Source: Deltaproteobacteria bacterium (GTDB taxonomy: Bacteria; Myxococcota; Myxococcia; Myxococcales; Anaeromyxobacteraceae). Taken from it: a stretch of DNA of 64,000 nucleotides. This document shows positions 1-20,016 of this stretch, piece after piece. The notes under the pieces are model-generated. The model made no database searches. It was not told where the DNA came from and was given only the letters and a program-made list of their open reading frames with translations. Both the position numbers and the translations under genes were made by a program. Position 1 is the stretch's first letter. Every line of letters begins with the position of its first letter. The stretch is taken from positions 78,861 through 142,860 of the forward strand of contig JACRMN010000020.1 in the NCBI GenBank assembly GCA_016214955.1, given 5' to 3'.

Positions 1-1463
1 GGCAGGCGGGCATGGCGCTCGGGCGCCTCGGCTACGCCGCCGTCATCTTCGAGGGCGCGCCGGCCGGCGACGACCTCTGGAAGGTGCTCATCGACAAGAA
101 CGGCGTCTCCTTCAGCGTCGACAACAGCTGCCGGGGGCTCGGGAACTACGACACCGTCGAGAAGCTGGTGAAGGTGCACGGCGAGAAGTGCGCCTACGTC
201 ACCATCGGCCAGGCAGGCGAGATGAAGCTCGGCGCCGCCTCGATCGCCTGCACCGACCGCGAGCTCCGGCCCACCCGCCACATGGGGCGCGGCGGCGTCG
301 GCGCGGTGATGGGGTCGAAGAAGATCAAGGCCATCGTCGTCGACGAGTCGGGCACCACCCCGCCGCAGCCCAGGGACCCGGCCCGTTTCAAGGAGGCCGC
401 AAAGGCCTGGGTGGAGGGGCTGAAGCGGCACGCCGTCTCGGGCCAGGGCCTGCCGGCCTTCGGCACCAACGTGCTCACCAACGTGCTCAACGAGGCCGGG
501 GGCTACCCGACCTTCAACTTCAAGGAGGGCCGCTTCGCCGGCGCCTCGAAGATCAGCGGCGAGACCCAGGCGCAGCTGGAGATCGACCGCGGCGGGCTCG
601 CGACCCACGGCTGCCAGCGCGGCTGCACCATCCAGTGCTCGGGCATCTTCCACGACAAGGAAGGGAAGTACGTCACCAAGCAGCCCGAGTACGAGACCGT
701 CTGGTCCCACGGCGGCAACTGCGGGATCGACGACCTCGACGTCATCGCCCAGCTCGACCGCATGGACGACGACTTCGGCCTCGACACCATCGAGATGGGC
801 GTGACCATCGGCGTCGCCATGGAGGCCGGCGTCATCCCCTTCGGCGACGCGGCCGGGGCCCTCCGGCTCCTGGGTGAGGTGGGCAAGGGCACGCCGCTCG
901 GCCGCATCCTCGGCTCGGGCGCGGGCGTCACCGGCAAGGTGTTCGGCGTCGAGCGCGTCCCGGTGGTGAAGAACCAGGCGCTGCCCGCGTACGATCCCCG
1001 CGCCGTGCAGGGGCAGGGCGTCACCTACGCCACCTCGCCCATGGGCGGTGACCACACCGCCGGCTACGCGGTGGCCACCAACATCCTCAAGGTGGGCGGC
1101 TTCGTCGATCCGTTGAAGCCCGAGGGGCAGGTCGAGCTCTCGCGCAACCTGCAGATCGCCACCGCCGCGGTGGACTCCACCGGAATGTGCCTGTTCGTGG
1201 CCTTCCCGGTGCTCGACCAGCCCGACACCTTCCAGACGCTGATCGATCTCCTCAACGCGCAGTACGGCCTCTCGCTGGTGGGCGACGACGTCGCCGCCCT
1301 GGGCAAGAAGGTCCTCTCGGCGGAGCGCGGCTTCAACTCGCGGGCGGGGCTCGGCGTCGAGCAGGACCGGCTGCCGCGCTTCTTCGAGCAGCAGCCGCTC
1401 GCCCCCCACAACGTGGTCTTCGGCGTGAAGCCGGAGGAGCTGGATCGGGTCTTCAACTGGTGA
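1..1463 (+). CDS. Aldehyde:ferredoxin oxidoreductase family protein, 5' end cut by window
   Basis: Tungsten/molybdenum-pterin enzyme family that oxidises aldehydes to acids with ferredoxin as acceptor. The frame is open to base 3, so the N-terminal pterin-binding part lies upstream; about 487 residues are visible against roughly 600 for the family. Visible hallmarks are a C-x3-C-x3-C iron-sulfur motif in HGCQRGCTIQC (about bases 608-640) and a late cysteine in DSTGMC (about 1172-1190), which fits the fourth ligand. A MoaD-like and a ThiF/MoeB-like gene follow on the same strand, as is common for AOR operons. By context it would clear the aldehyde made by the downstream iron alcohol dehydrogenase. 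The substrate is inferred, not seen. Confidence 0.9.
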   Translation, partial: QAGMALGRLGYAAVIFEGAPAGDDLWKVLIDKNGVSFSVDNSCRGLGNYDTVEKLVKVHGEKCAYVTIGQAGEMKLGAASIACTDRELRPTRHMGRGGVGAVMGSKKIKAIVVDESGTTPPQPRDPARFKEAAKAWVEGLKRHAVSGQGLPAFGTNVLTNVLNEAGGYPTFNFKEGRFAGASKISGETQAQLEIDRGGLATHGCQRGCTIQCSGIFHDKEGKYVTKQPEYETVWSHGGNCGIDDLDVIAQLDRMDDDFGLDTIEMGVTIGVAMEAGVIPFGDAAGALRLLGEVGKGTPLGRILGSGAGVTGKVFGVERVPVVKNQALPAYDPRAVQGQGVTYATSPMGGDHTAGYAVATNILKVGGFVDPLKPEGQVELSRNLQIATAAVDSTGMCLFVAFPVLDQPDTFQTLIDLLNAQYGLSLVGDDVAALGKKVLSAERGFNSRAGLGVEQDRLPRFFEQQPLAPHNVVFGVKPEELDRVFNW

Positions 1464-1540
1464 GGGGTCGCCCCGGAGGGGAGGGTGCCTTCGAGCCCTC
1501 TCCTCCGGGGGCGAGCGCCTCGGCGACGCCGGGCACGGCC

Positions 1541-1765
1541 ATGAAGCTGACCGTCAAGCTCTTCGCGACCTTTCGCCAGGGGCGCTTCGCCGAGGCGGAG
1601 CTGGAGCTCGCCGAGGGAACGACGCTCGGGAGCCTCGCCGATGGGCTGCGGATCCCGCGGGAGGAGATCGGGATCCTGATGGTCGGCGGGCGGCACGCCG
1701 AGCTCGCCCACCGCCCCGCCCCCGGCGACGTGGTCGCCATCTTCCCGCTGCTGGGCGGAGGCTGA
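1541..1765 (+). CDS. MoaD/ThiS-like beta-grasp sulfur carrier
   Basis: A 74-residue ubiquitin-like sulfur carrier ending in Gly-Gly-Gly. A C-terminal diglycine is the end that E1-like enzymes adenylate and thiocarboxylate during pterin-dithiolene synthesis. The ATG follows the AOR stop by 77 bases and its stop lies 2 bases from the start of a ThiF/MoeB-like gene, its expected activating enzyme. Position beside AOR suggests a dedicated carrier for the tungsten or molybdenum cofactor of that enzyme rather than the housekeeping MoaD. ThiS-like or protein-modifier roles cannot be excluded from sequence alone. Confidence 0.8.
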   Translation: MKLTVKLFATFRQGRFAEAELELAEGTTLGSLADGLRIPREEIGILMVGGRHAELAHRPAPGDVVAIFPLLGGG

Positions 1766-17955: not shown

Positions 17956-18018
17956 CGCCGAAAGCGCTGCGGCGGGTGGTGCCAGCCTGCACCTCTTGCT
18001 ACCGTTTGCGCATTGACC

Positions 18019-20016
18019 ATGAGGCCGTTCCCCAAGCCCACGAGTCGGCTCGAGCGCAGGCGCCAGATCGATCGCGCCTGGCACGCCTACGTCCTGGACG
18101 GCGTGGCGCCCGACGGGATCGGGGAGGAGATCGCCCGTTCCTGGCAGCGCGCCCGCGGCTACCGGATCGACCCTGCGCAGAAGCGGATCGCGCGCCGCCT
18201 CTCGGCCGAGGAGCTCCGGCAGCGGCGGGAGCGGGACGACGTCCTGCGGCTGGCGCGGCCCATCCTGGCCGACTTCGCCGCCCGCCTCGGCCTCGGCGAC
18301 CACGTCCTCACCTACTTCGACGGCGACGGCTGGCTGCTCGACATCGCGGGACTGCCGGCGGTGGTCGAGGCGGTCTCGGAGATCGACTTCACCCCGGGTT
18401 CCTGCTGGGCCGAGGACGCCGCCGGCACCAACGGGCCGGGCACGGCGCTGGCCGAGGGGCGGCCCGTGGAGGTCTTCGCCTCCGAGCACTTCGTGGAAGC
18501 CTGGCAGCCCTGGAGCTGTGCCGCCGCTCCGGTCCTCCCGCCGGGCGGCGGGGCGCCCCTCGGGCTCGTCGACATCACTGGCCCCTGGGAGGTGCAGCGC
18601 CGCCAGGCGCTGGTGGCTGCCAAGGCCATCGCCCGGGCGGTGGAGGAGCGTCTGCGCGCCGCGGTGAGCGTGCGCGACGAGGTGGTGCGCTACGCCTTCC
18701 GCGCCGCTCACGCCTCGGGGGACGCGCTGGTGGCCGTCGACGCCCGCGGGGTGGTGGTGGCGGTCAACGACGCCGCCGCCCGGCGCCGGGTGGTCGAGGC
18801 GGGCTCGCTTCCCCTGGCCGTGAGGCAGGCGCTGCTCACCGGCTTCGCCGGGCGAGCCGCCGCCGGCGGGAGCGAGATGCACATCCAGGTGCCGGAGGCG
18901 CCGCTGCTGGTGGCCTCTCCGGTCACGCATGAGGGGGCGGTGATCGGGGCCATCGTGCGGGCGCCAGACGCGCGGCCGGCGACGCGCCCATCGCGCAGGA
19001 GGGGACGGGAGGATACCGCCGTGACCTCCGAGCCAGGCCTGGCCCGCTATGACTTCGGCCGCATCCTCGGCGCCTCCGACGCGCTCGCCCGGGCCACCGA
19101 GCTGGCGCGGGTGGCGACCCGCAACGCCCTCCCGGTGGCCCTCTACGGGGAGTCCGGGACGGGCAAGGAGCTCTTCGCCCACGCCATCCACTCCGCCGGC
19201 GACAGGGCCGGAGGCCCGTTCGTGGCCGTGAACTGCGGCTCCATCCCGGCGCAGCTGGTGGAGGCCGAGCTGTTCGGCTACGAGGCCGGCACCTTCACCG
19301 GCGGCCGTCGCGACGGGAACCAGGGACGCTTCGAGGACGCCGACGGCGGCACCCTCTTCCTCGACGAGGTGAGCGAGCTCTCCGGTCTCGCGCAGACGGC
19401 GCTCCTGCGGGTGCTGCAGGAGAAGGAGGTGGTGCGGCTCGGGGGCAGCAGCCCGCGGCGCCTCGACGTCCGCATCGTGACCGCCTCCAACAAGCCGCTG
19501 CTGGCCGAGTGCCAGGAGCGCCGCTTTCGGCGCGACCTCTACTACCGCCTCAACGTCCTGGCGATCGACATCCCGCCGCTGCGGGAGCGGGGCGACGACG
19601 TCACCCTGCTGGCCCGGATCTTCCTGGCCGAGGCCGAGGTCGAGGTGGGGAGGGCGGGCCTGGCCCTGACCGACGAGGCGGTGGCGGCGCTGCGGGCCTA
19701 CTCCTGGCCCGGCAACGTCCGCGAGCTGAAGAACGTCATCCTGCGCGCGGCGGCGACCTCCCGCACCGCGGAGATCGATCGCGCCGACCTCCTGCTCCCC
19801 GAGGACGAGGCGCGGCTGGCGCCGGCCAGCCCGGGGCCCCCCGAGCCCTCGCTGCGCGGCGCCATGCGGGAGAGCGAGCGCCAGGTCCTGCTTGCCACGC
19901 TCACGGCCTGCGCCTGGAACTTCTCTCGCGCCGCCGACCAGCTCGGCATCTCGCGGATGACGCTCTACCGGCGGCTCGAGCGCTGCGGCATCTCCCGGGC
20001 AGGCACGCGGAGCTGA
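18019..20016 (+). CDS. Sigma-54-dependent AcoR-type activator (GAF-AAA+-Fis HTH)
   Basis: A 665-residue regulator: N-terminal AcoR-type region with a GAF-like sensor (about 75-210), a PAS-like middle, a central AAA+ domain (about 340-580) with Walker A GESGTGKE and Walker B LFLDEVSEL, and a C-terminal Fis helix-turn-helix (AADQLGISRMTLYRRL). The sigma-54 contact loop reads GTFTGG (residues 424-429) instead of the usual GAFTGA; the key Thr is kept. An in-frame TTG two codons upstream is an alternative start. Family members sense acetoin, glycerol or other alcohols, so it probably drives the mycofactocin/alcohol locus. Confidence 0.9.
   Translation: MRPFPKPTSRLERRRQIDRAWHAYVLDGVAPDGIGEEIARSWQRARGYRIDPAQKRIARRLSAEELRQRRERDDVLRLARPILADFAARLGLGDHVLTYFDGDGWLLDIAGLPAVVEAVSEIDFTPGSCWAEDAAGTNGPGTALAEGRPVEVFASEHFVEAWQPWSCAAAPVLPPGGGAPLGLVDITGPWEVQRRQALVAAKAIARAVEERLRAAVSVRDEVVRYAFRAAHASGDALVAVDARGVVVAVNDAAARRRVVEAGSLPLAVRQALLTGFAGRAAAGGSEMHIQVPEAPLLVASPVTHEGAVIGAIVRAPDARPATRPSRRRGREDTAVTSEPGLARYDFGRILGASDALARATELARVATRNALPVALYGESGTGKELFAHAIHSAGDRAGGPFVAVNCGSIPAQLVEAELFGYEAGTFTGGRRDGNQGRFEDADGGTLFLDEVSELSGLAQTALLRVLQEKEVVRLGGSSPRRLDVRIVTASNKPLLAECQERRFRRDLYYRLNVLAIDIPPLRERGDDVTLLARIFLAEAEVEVGRAGLALTDEAVAALRAYSWPGNVRELKNVILRAAATSRTAEIDRADLLLPEDEARLAPASPGPPEPSLRGAMRESERQVLLATLTACAWNFSRAADQLGISRMTLYRRLERCGISRAGTRS

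Follow-up and report, generated by a model that had tools for sequence, protein, structure and literature searches.

An old yellow enzyme and electron transfer flavoprotein module in place of mftD in the mycofactocin locus of an Anaeromyxobacteraceae bacterium

We analysed a 64,000-nucleotide stretch of DNA (the window; positions 78,861 to 142,860 of contig JACRMN010000020.1, assembly GCA_016214955.1) from a bacterium placed with the Anaeromyxobacteraceae (Myxococcota, formerly deltaproteobacteria). Its mycofactocin (mft) locus carries five genes between mftC and mftF, encoding an old yellow enzyme (OYE)-type flavoprotein, OYE_2, the electron transfer flavoprotein (ETF) subunits EtfA and EtfB, and FixC and FixX, and among related loci this module is swapped for mftD as a unit, repeatedly. 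We give slightly better than an even chance to the reading that OYE_2-EtfA-FixC-FixX-EtfB stands in place of mftD, with OYE_2 doing the work of MftD as an ETF-coupled dehydrogenase whose electrons pass via EtfAB and FixCX to quinone. The window has a G+C content of 73.8%, and the source genome comprises 5.30 Mb in 30 contigs with a completeness of 95.6%.

Fourteen genes of the same direction occupy positions 3670–17527 of the forward strand, in the order iron alcohol dehydrogenase (ADH), AmiS/UreI-like, mftA-mftB-mftC, OYE_2-etfA-fixC-fixX-etfB, mftF, radical S-adenosylmethionine (SAM), MoxR-type ATPase, and von Willebrand factor A (VWA)/CoxE. The mftA gene (5693–5845) encodes a precursor of 50 amino acids with the C-terminal IDGICGVY, scoring 44.9 against NF040489 (cut-off 30) and 36.9 against TIGR03969 (cut-off 25); it is followed by mftB, the peptide chaperone (5856–6167; TIGR03967, 60.9 against 33), and mftC, the radical SAM maturase (6148–7203; TIGR03962, 342 against 265), and, beyond the module, by the glycosyltransferase gene mftF (12708–14129; TIGR03965, 389 against 280). 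All four lie above the NCBIfam cut-offs, so the universal markers of a mycofactocin locus are present. The module comprises OYE_2 (7200–9167; TIGR03997, 940 against 793), an FMN/Fe-S/FAD-type flavoprotein and predicted ETF-coupled dehydrogenase in the stead of MftD; etfA (9164–10225; PF00766 and PF01012); fixC, the flavoprotein of an ETF:quinone oxidoreductase (10222–11520; 268 bits with 7koe_C); fixX, a ferredoxin-like subunit (11530–11811; Fer4_9, 29 bits with a cut-off of 27, and NF011993, 57 bits with a cut-off of 166); and etfB (11821–12711; PF01012, 75 bits). From mftA to mftF the joins measure, in order, 10, −20, −4, −4, −4, 9, 9, and −4 bases; the module is held together by 4-base overlaps or 9-base gaps, and after mftA every join is of 10 bases or less except the 20-base overlap of mftB and mftC. 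The initial annotation, which described the genes from mftA to mftF as joined by 4-base overlaps or gaps of at most 10 bases, was right for all joins but that one. The genes it listed are present and co-directional, but the run that it ended at mftF goes on with the radical SAM, MoxR-type ATPase, and VWA/CoxE genes (overlaps of 4 and 7 bases and a gap of 1).

The genome gave no match to mftD (TIGR03966) and none to mftE (TIGR03964 or the creatininase family PF02633), and no member of the creatininase superfamily was found in it or in two mft genomes of the same family, one of which is a single contig. The locus had been called self-contained, with a genome search proposed for mftD and mftE; the search was run and found neither, so the term fails in its usual sense. 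The FMN_dh family (PF01070) matches the genome in partial stretches only, and thus no relative of MftD is evident. In Mycobacterium smegmatis, deletion of mftD abolishes mycofactocin, and the loss of mftE is partly bypassed (PMC7491314). The absence of mftD is therefore the one that needs an explanation. In the 47 related genomes described below, a homologue of mftE scoring below the cut-off occurs in 30 and one above it in none, and mftG (TIGR03970) exceeds its cut-off in 0 of 48 genomes, the source genome included. One MftR sequence gave no match in the 48 related loci, to which this search was confined. Compared with the mycobacterial mftABCDEFG operon (PMC7491314, PMC11778925), with which it shares MftA, MftB, MftC, and MftF by NCBIfam cut-offs and the link to an alcohol dehydrogenase, the locus differs in that mftD, mftE, and mftG were not found, in the OYE_2-EtfA-FixC-FixX-EtfB genes between mftC and mftF, and in the sigma-54-type sites seen in its relatives.

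Scanning the species genomes of GTDB with MftC yielded 74 loci, of which 48 have the MftC type of the window (68–82% identity), with three spanning just an end of mftC; the other 26, radical SAM proteins of 27–33% identity, were dropped. The 48 loci come from 47 genomes or metagenome-assembled genomes named Geobacteraceae, Desulfuromonadales, Deltaproteobacteria, Anaeromyxobacter, Deferrisomatales, and the like. Where at least 6.2 kb lie beyond mftC, the order OYE_2, etfA, fixC, fixX, etfB, mftF follows it in 33 of 36 loci, including one (L058; L and G numbers denote our loci and genomes) in which just 57% of OYE is matched in one open frame. The module is missing in L036, L071, and L043, the last sharing its genome with the module-bearing L039, and also in L068, which has less room after mftC. 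The initial annotation had proposed comparing the neighbourhoods of relatives for co-occurrence of etf/fix and AOR (aldehyde:ferredoxin oxidoreductase) genes with mft genes, and both are borne out: the etf/fix genes follow mftC in these 33 of 36 loci, and AOR follows mftF in 22 of the 32 relatives in which this can be tested. Since 10 of these 32 loci have room but no AOR directly after mftF, AOR was rejected as an obligate part.

MftD exceeds its cut-off in 3 of the 47 genomes, those of L055, L068, and L071; it lies directly before mftA on the opposite strand in L068 and approximately 17 kb from mftA, apparently on the same contig, in L071. OYE_2 exceeds its cut-off in 43 of 48 distinct genomes (44 of 50 before two duplicate pairs were merged), and in two further genomes it is seen at the locus only, truncated at the edge of a contig in G071 and incomplete in G082. 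Counted over the source genome and its 47 relatives, 44 have OYE_2 only (G071 and G082 included), two mftD only, one both, and one neither (Fisher p 0.008; here and below the rows are related, so that the p values are only a guide). The mft-type EtfB travels with OYE_2: it is found in 42 of the 48 genomes, both proteins are absent from the two mftD-only genomes, and it is missing in G061, G092, and G095 and in G062, G070, and G071, where the module runs off the contig. G061, with neither mftD nor the module, is unexplained by our proposal. In G079, which also has the module, contigs C264 and C130 (L120 and L121) carry two copies of mftD with no other mft genes there. In a set of 60 genomes of relatives, the source genome included, OYE_2 exceeds the cut-off in two genomes, both with mftC, and eight weaker matches score 387–407 bits. 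A tree of mftC with 57 rows, seven of them unlabelled and L055 (from the genome with both) labelled as module, contains well-supported branches that force four changes between the module and mftD labels; L071 (mftD) is sister to L066 (module) with support of 100/99. The MftA variant IDGICGVY was considered as a marker of mftD-less systems and rejected, as it is found with and without mftD in deltaproteobacterial loci and also in haloarchaea; in actinobacteria MftA ends in IDGMCGVY with either the module or mftD.

The same alternation is seen on plasmids. Every plasmid record with an mftC match at E up to 1e-40 was opened, 12 in all, and in the mft stretches read on these plasmids we found eight with the module and no mftD, four with mftD and no module, and none with both (Fisher p 0.002). 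The module type comprises six Streptomyces records (one unannotated and scanned), Haloterrigena, and Halolamina; the mftD type comprises Thermomicrobium, M. chubuense, one other Streptomyces, and Tsukamurella. Three of the Streptomyces records have mftE after mftF and a fourth has it after etfB, and in three Streptomyces clusters mftA, B, C, E, and F are annotated, with no mftD or mftG within the stretches read. A search of plasmids with OYE_2 returned the eight mft module records as the best eight among the matches listed (the best 40 of 450 records). The corresponding EtfB search gave 17 records, none of them mft and those with names being ordinary ETFs, and these are too distant to inform. 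The family models mft_etfA (NF038209, cut-off 240) and mft_etfB (TIGR04503, cut-off 200) pass the genes of S. yangpuensis and fail those of Haloterrigena and of the window, which score 132.8 and 62.1, respectively. In the plasmid of Streptomyces sp. SAT1 (L117, 11618–14148), OYE_2 is split across two frames with no annotated gene. As Streptomyces and haloarchaea carry it, the module is not specific to anaerobes, which qualifies the anaerobic setting that had been proposed for the locus.

The exchange bears on what the module does. The initial annotation gave it the re-oxidation of mycofactocin, and a reading limited to that role would have OYE, ETF, and FixCX only re-oxidise mycofactocinol as a substitute for MftG, with an unlinked enzyme doing the MftD step. 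The whole ETF:quinone chain fits a catabolic flux, mftG is above its cut-off in none of the 48 genomes, and about 25% of mftC genomes lack mftG, the replacement of MftG being left open in the available part of a 2025 study (PMC11778925). Such a role predicts mftD beside the module; instead mftD is missing in 44 of 45 OYE_2 genomes and in all eight module plasmid loci, and the source genome offers nothing beyond the partial FMN_dh matches. We therefore consider re-oxidation alone unlikely. Because the module is exchanged for mftD and not merely added for re-oxidation, it most likely fills a biosynthetic step. Since mftD deletion abolishes mycofactocin in M. smegmatis and the module replaces mftD, OYE_2 likely performs the amine oxidation of AHDP (3-amino-5-[(4-hydroxyphenyl)methyl]-4,4-dimethyl-2-pyrrolidinone), the cyclised core of the peptide, with ETF and FixCX as the electron outlet. 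That OYE_2 also re-oxidises mycofactocinol is probable; of the two roles, AHDP oxidation is the better supported, as the two mftD-only genomes without the module are also without mftG.

OYE_2 aligns over most or all of its length with 2-naphthoyl-CoA reductase (NCR), 2,4-dienoyl-CoA reductase (DCR), trimethylamine dehydrogenase (TMADH), and histamine dehydrogenase. In 57 aligned rows of mft OYE1/OYE_2 (some of them duplicates), the first GxGxxG is present in all 57, and a second GxGxx[G/A] at the place of the NADPH motif of DCR is present in none; the OYE_2 of the window has VDTDGHHRATA where FadH (2,4-dienoyl-CoA reductase) has the NADPH GxGxxG. At the positions of the Fe-S ligands of TMADH (Cys 345, 348, 351, and 364), four cysteines are found in 42 of 57 rows, and Asp occupies the second place in 15 of 57, the window included. 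The resulting CxxD motif, at residues 342–361 of OYE_2, hints that the cluster may be Asp-ligated or have three irons. With the catalytic residues of TMADH taken to be Tyr169, His172, and Asp267 and its flavin cysteine Cys30, only the His is matched in OYE_2; a TMADH-like His/Asp active-site pair, considered as a candidate, was dropped after a check of residue numbers left only the His conserved. A structure model of OYE_2 and its re-examination with VIA confirm the OYE fold and do not discriminate a reductase from a dehydrogenase. Because the NADPH motif is missing and the catalytic residues are unmatched save the His, we describe OYE_2 not as a TMADH but as a flavoprotein that is encoded beside ETF genes and shows no evident NAD(P)H site. 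The resemblance to TMADH and histamine dehydrogenase with their ETF lies in the OYE-type flavoprotein with an Fe-S motif and in the ETF of TMADH being the nearest solved relative of EtfB; the differences are the His as the only active-site residue matched, the lack of the covalent-flavin Cys, and FixC and FixX instead of a one-chain ETF:quinone oxidoreductase.

These features also bear on whether the product is mycofactocin at all, since the core might stay an amine or be otherwise modified, with OYE_2 working reductively on another substrate. OYE family members are often reductases, and neither mftD nor mftE was found in the genome. Against this, MftA, MftB, MftC, and MftF are all above their cut-offs, the core ends in GVY, OYE_2 lacks the NADPH-type motif, and methyl-mycofactocin production has been reported for Saccharopolyspora, whose clusters are without mftD (PMC11162802); we regard a different product as very improbable.

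The remaining subunits suggest where the electrons go. The best solved relative of EtfB is the ETF of TMADH (1o94_C), that of FixC is, by far, the FixC of the Thermotoga ETF:quinone complex (7koe), and EtfA is nearest to the ETFs of 5ol2 and 6fah. OYE to ETF to FixCX to quinone, the route that the initial annotation had drawn, is the natural reading of these genes, and EtfB and FixC agree with it. The module could instead be a bifurcating complex of the FixABCX type, splitting electrons from mycofactocinol or NADH between quinone and ferredoxin, with the ferredoxin serving AOR or the radical SAM enzymes. It has the same four subunits as FixABCX (EtfA, EtfB, FixC, and FixX are all present), its FixC is by far nearest to that of 7koe, and the ETFs of 5ol2 and 6fah nearest to EtfA are ones that we take to be bifurcating. 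EtfB, however, lacks the GKQAxDGDTxQVG-like stretch of the two aligned bifurcating EtfBs (7koe and 6fah), is nearest to the ETF of TMADH, and adjoins OYE and mft genes. In addition, the midpoint potential of −255 mV (PMC7491314) would, by our estimate, put the splitting to ferredoxin near the energetic limit. Bifurcation thus appears improbable, more so than a role in re-oxidation alone.

Under the replacement of mftD by the module, the locus would operate as follows. By homology, MftB and MftC would modify the Val-Tyr end of MftA, and some peptidase, no MftE having been found, would free the cyclised core AHDP. OYE_2 would then oxidise AHDP at its C-NH2, yielding the keto-amide of premycofactocin and giving the electrons to EtfAB, and MftF, again by homology, would glycosylate premycofactocin. 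The iron ADH would oxidise a short alcohol and reduce mycofactocin, and OYE_2 would re-oxidise the C-OH at the same carbon via ETF and FixCX; AOR would convert the aldehyde to the acid. The chain thus likely passes electrons from alcohols into respiration. Judging from the promoter-like sites, the sigma-54 activator may turn on the ADH-mft genes and possibly AOR. This proposal accounts neither for the release of the peptide without MftE nor for what the second radical SAM, MoxR, and VWA genes do.

The iron ADH (3670–4875; 401 amino acids from the ATG at 3670, with profile, Pfam, and PDB searches run from a start four codons earlier) is nearest to the solved NAD(P)-type methanol dehydrogenases 8zwd and 8zrl, and scores 367 bits, under the cut-off of 625, against the N,N-dimethyl-4-nitrosoaniline-dependent methanol dehydrogenase model TIGR04266. 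It carries TSNPKDHEVH where the mycofactocin-linked stretch published by Haft is TSNPKDYEVH (PMC3023750). The NPKD motif occurs in 20 of 21 rows of ADHs near mft genes, two of the rows being one gene and all of them mft-near. Ten related loci (L037, L038, L045, L063, L066, L070, L071, L074, L078, and L079) have genes for an iron ADH, a MoxR-type ATPase, and a VWA protein grouped together upstream of the mft genes, in three cases preceded by a second radical SAM gene; the window differs in that its radical SAM, MoxR, and VWA genes come after mftF. The group is possibly a maturation set for the ADH. In the window, the second radical SAM protein (14126–15265) matches PF04055 with 74 bits and has no SPASM match, the MoxR-type AAA ATPase (15259–16161) scores 308.6 against the MadB family, under its cut-off of 475, and the VWA/CoxE-like protein (16163–17527) matches PF05762 with 108 bits; a literature search on MadB/MadC found no matching paper. 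On the opposite strand, 0.9–1.6 kb ahead of mftC, at least 21 Geobacter-type loci (for example L079, 8772–9344, reverse strand) encode a NUDIX protein with a zinc ribbon; a NUDIX activator is known for the methanol dehydrogenase of Bacillus methanolicus.

The initial annotation placed the iron ADH and an AOR with its own MoaD/ThiF-like genes at the flank of the mft genes; they are there, but an AmiS/UreI-like gene separates ADH from mftA, with gaps of 205 and 81 bases, and 1077 bases lie between the end of ThiF and the start of ADH. The AmiS/UreI-like membrane channel (5081–5611; PF02293, 23.7 bits, slightly below the cut-off of 25) could admit a small amide or alcohol; a counterpart of 71% identity lies near mftD in L123 (5254–6180). 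The tungsten-type AOR enters the window with its 3' part (1–1463, forward strand; PF01314, 251 bits; PF02730, 86 bits); the full protein has 578 amino acids, the first 274 bases of its gene lie left of the window, and its best PDB matches are 9mqx and 1aor. It is followed on the same strand by a MoaD/ThiS-like sulfur carrier of 74 amino acids (1541–1765; PF02597, 34.1 bits, cut-off 22.5) and a ThiF/MoeB-like adenylyltransferase (1768–2592; PF00899, 169.5 bits), which is also found after AOR in L071. On the reverse strand at 2629–3348, with an unsure start, lies a homologue of a protein of approximately 200 amino acids found after AOR in relatives; it matches 20 of 20 members of that group (family 4 of our set; best identity 46%), and no Pfam family was found for it.

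The activator gene that the initial annotation reported downstream is present (18019–20016, forward strand; GAF, AAA, and Fis-type helix-turn-helix domains, PF01590, PF00158, and PF02954) and is the likely regulator; it begins 491 bases past the VWA gene, with an ABM-domain gene (17557–17874) in between. By the sigma-54 consensus, which matches 5.75% of random 250-base windows, 25 of the 26 related loci with a placeable mftB start have sites in the 250 bases ahead of it. This figure is used over that for mftA (36 of 42 loci) because the mftA windows were longer than the background windows. Among relatives, sites also precede 9 of 14 ADH genes and 1 of 19 AOR genes. In the window, the site TGGCCCGCCGGTTGAA (3563–3578, forward strand) before ADH keeps the −24 GG and lacks the −12 GC; a similar site, 82 bases ahead of ADH in Anaeromyxobacter oryzae, likewise lacks the −12 GC. 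The AOR site of the window is not common to the two relatives of the same family. No Rfam family matched positions 1–24000 at the gathering score.

Part of this picture is already known. A 2011 paper described mycofactocin genes in Geobacter, Pelotomaculum, and Haloterrigena (PMC3023750), and a 2015 paper connected those of G. pickeringii with the use of methanol (PMC4358379). The loci of Geobacter uraniireducens, Pelotomaculum, and Haloterrigena in the former share the marker genes and an iron ADH with the TSNPKDxEVH hot spot; ETF/FixCX and the exchange of mftD are unmentioned in the part available, where the "flavoprotein" passage concerns F420 enzymes. In the BGCFlow study, 17 Saccharopolyspora clusters contain mft genes other than mftD together with TIGR03997, and S. 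erythraea is cited as making methyl-mycofactocin (PMC11162802), so that OYE without mftD in a reported producer is not new. These clusters resemble the locus in an mft set without mftD and with a FadH/OYE gene, and differ in that the locus here is also without mftE. In the accessible part of that account, the function of OYE is given as unknown, and ETF, FixCX, a replacement across phyla, and mftD elsewhere in those genomes are not addressed. It was the only paper on TIGR03997 among the matches listed. Our literature searches, with subscription papers and preprints mostly outside their reach, found no paper on mycofactocin and an electron transfer flavoprotein, nor the ETF/FixCX link or the exchange of mftD (terms old yellow enzyme, Geobacter, quinone oxidoreductase, and FadH), and the literature on FixC, FixX, FixABCX, and TMADH had none with mycofactocin among the matches listed.

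Taken further, the data raise the possibility, to which we give somewhat less than an even chance, that mycofactocin is completed and put to use by either of two exchangeable systems: one of MftD and MftG, the other an OYE_2-ETF-FixCX module that would form the keto group and, with no need for oxygen, also re-oxidise it straight into the quinone pool. The latter would serve the relatives of Geobacter and Anaeromyxobacter, some Streptomyces, and haloarchaea. In mycobacteria, the oxidation and recycling of mycofactocin fall to MftD and MftG, and the module, seen here in three bacterial phyla and in haloarchaea, is a concrete candidate for both steps. The exchange would bear on genome-mining rules that demand mftD (PMC11162802). 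If true, the two-way reading would explain how anaerobes make and re-oxidise mycofactocin, and mycofactocin would serve anaerobes and archaea as a cofactor of respiratory alcohol oxidation.

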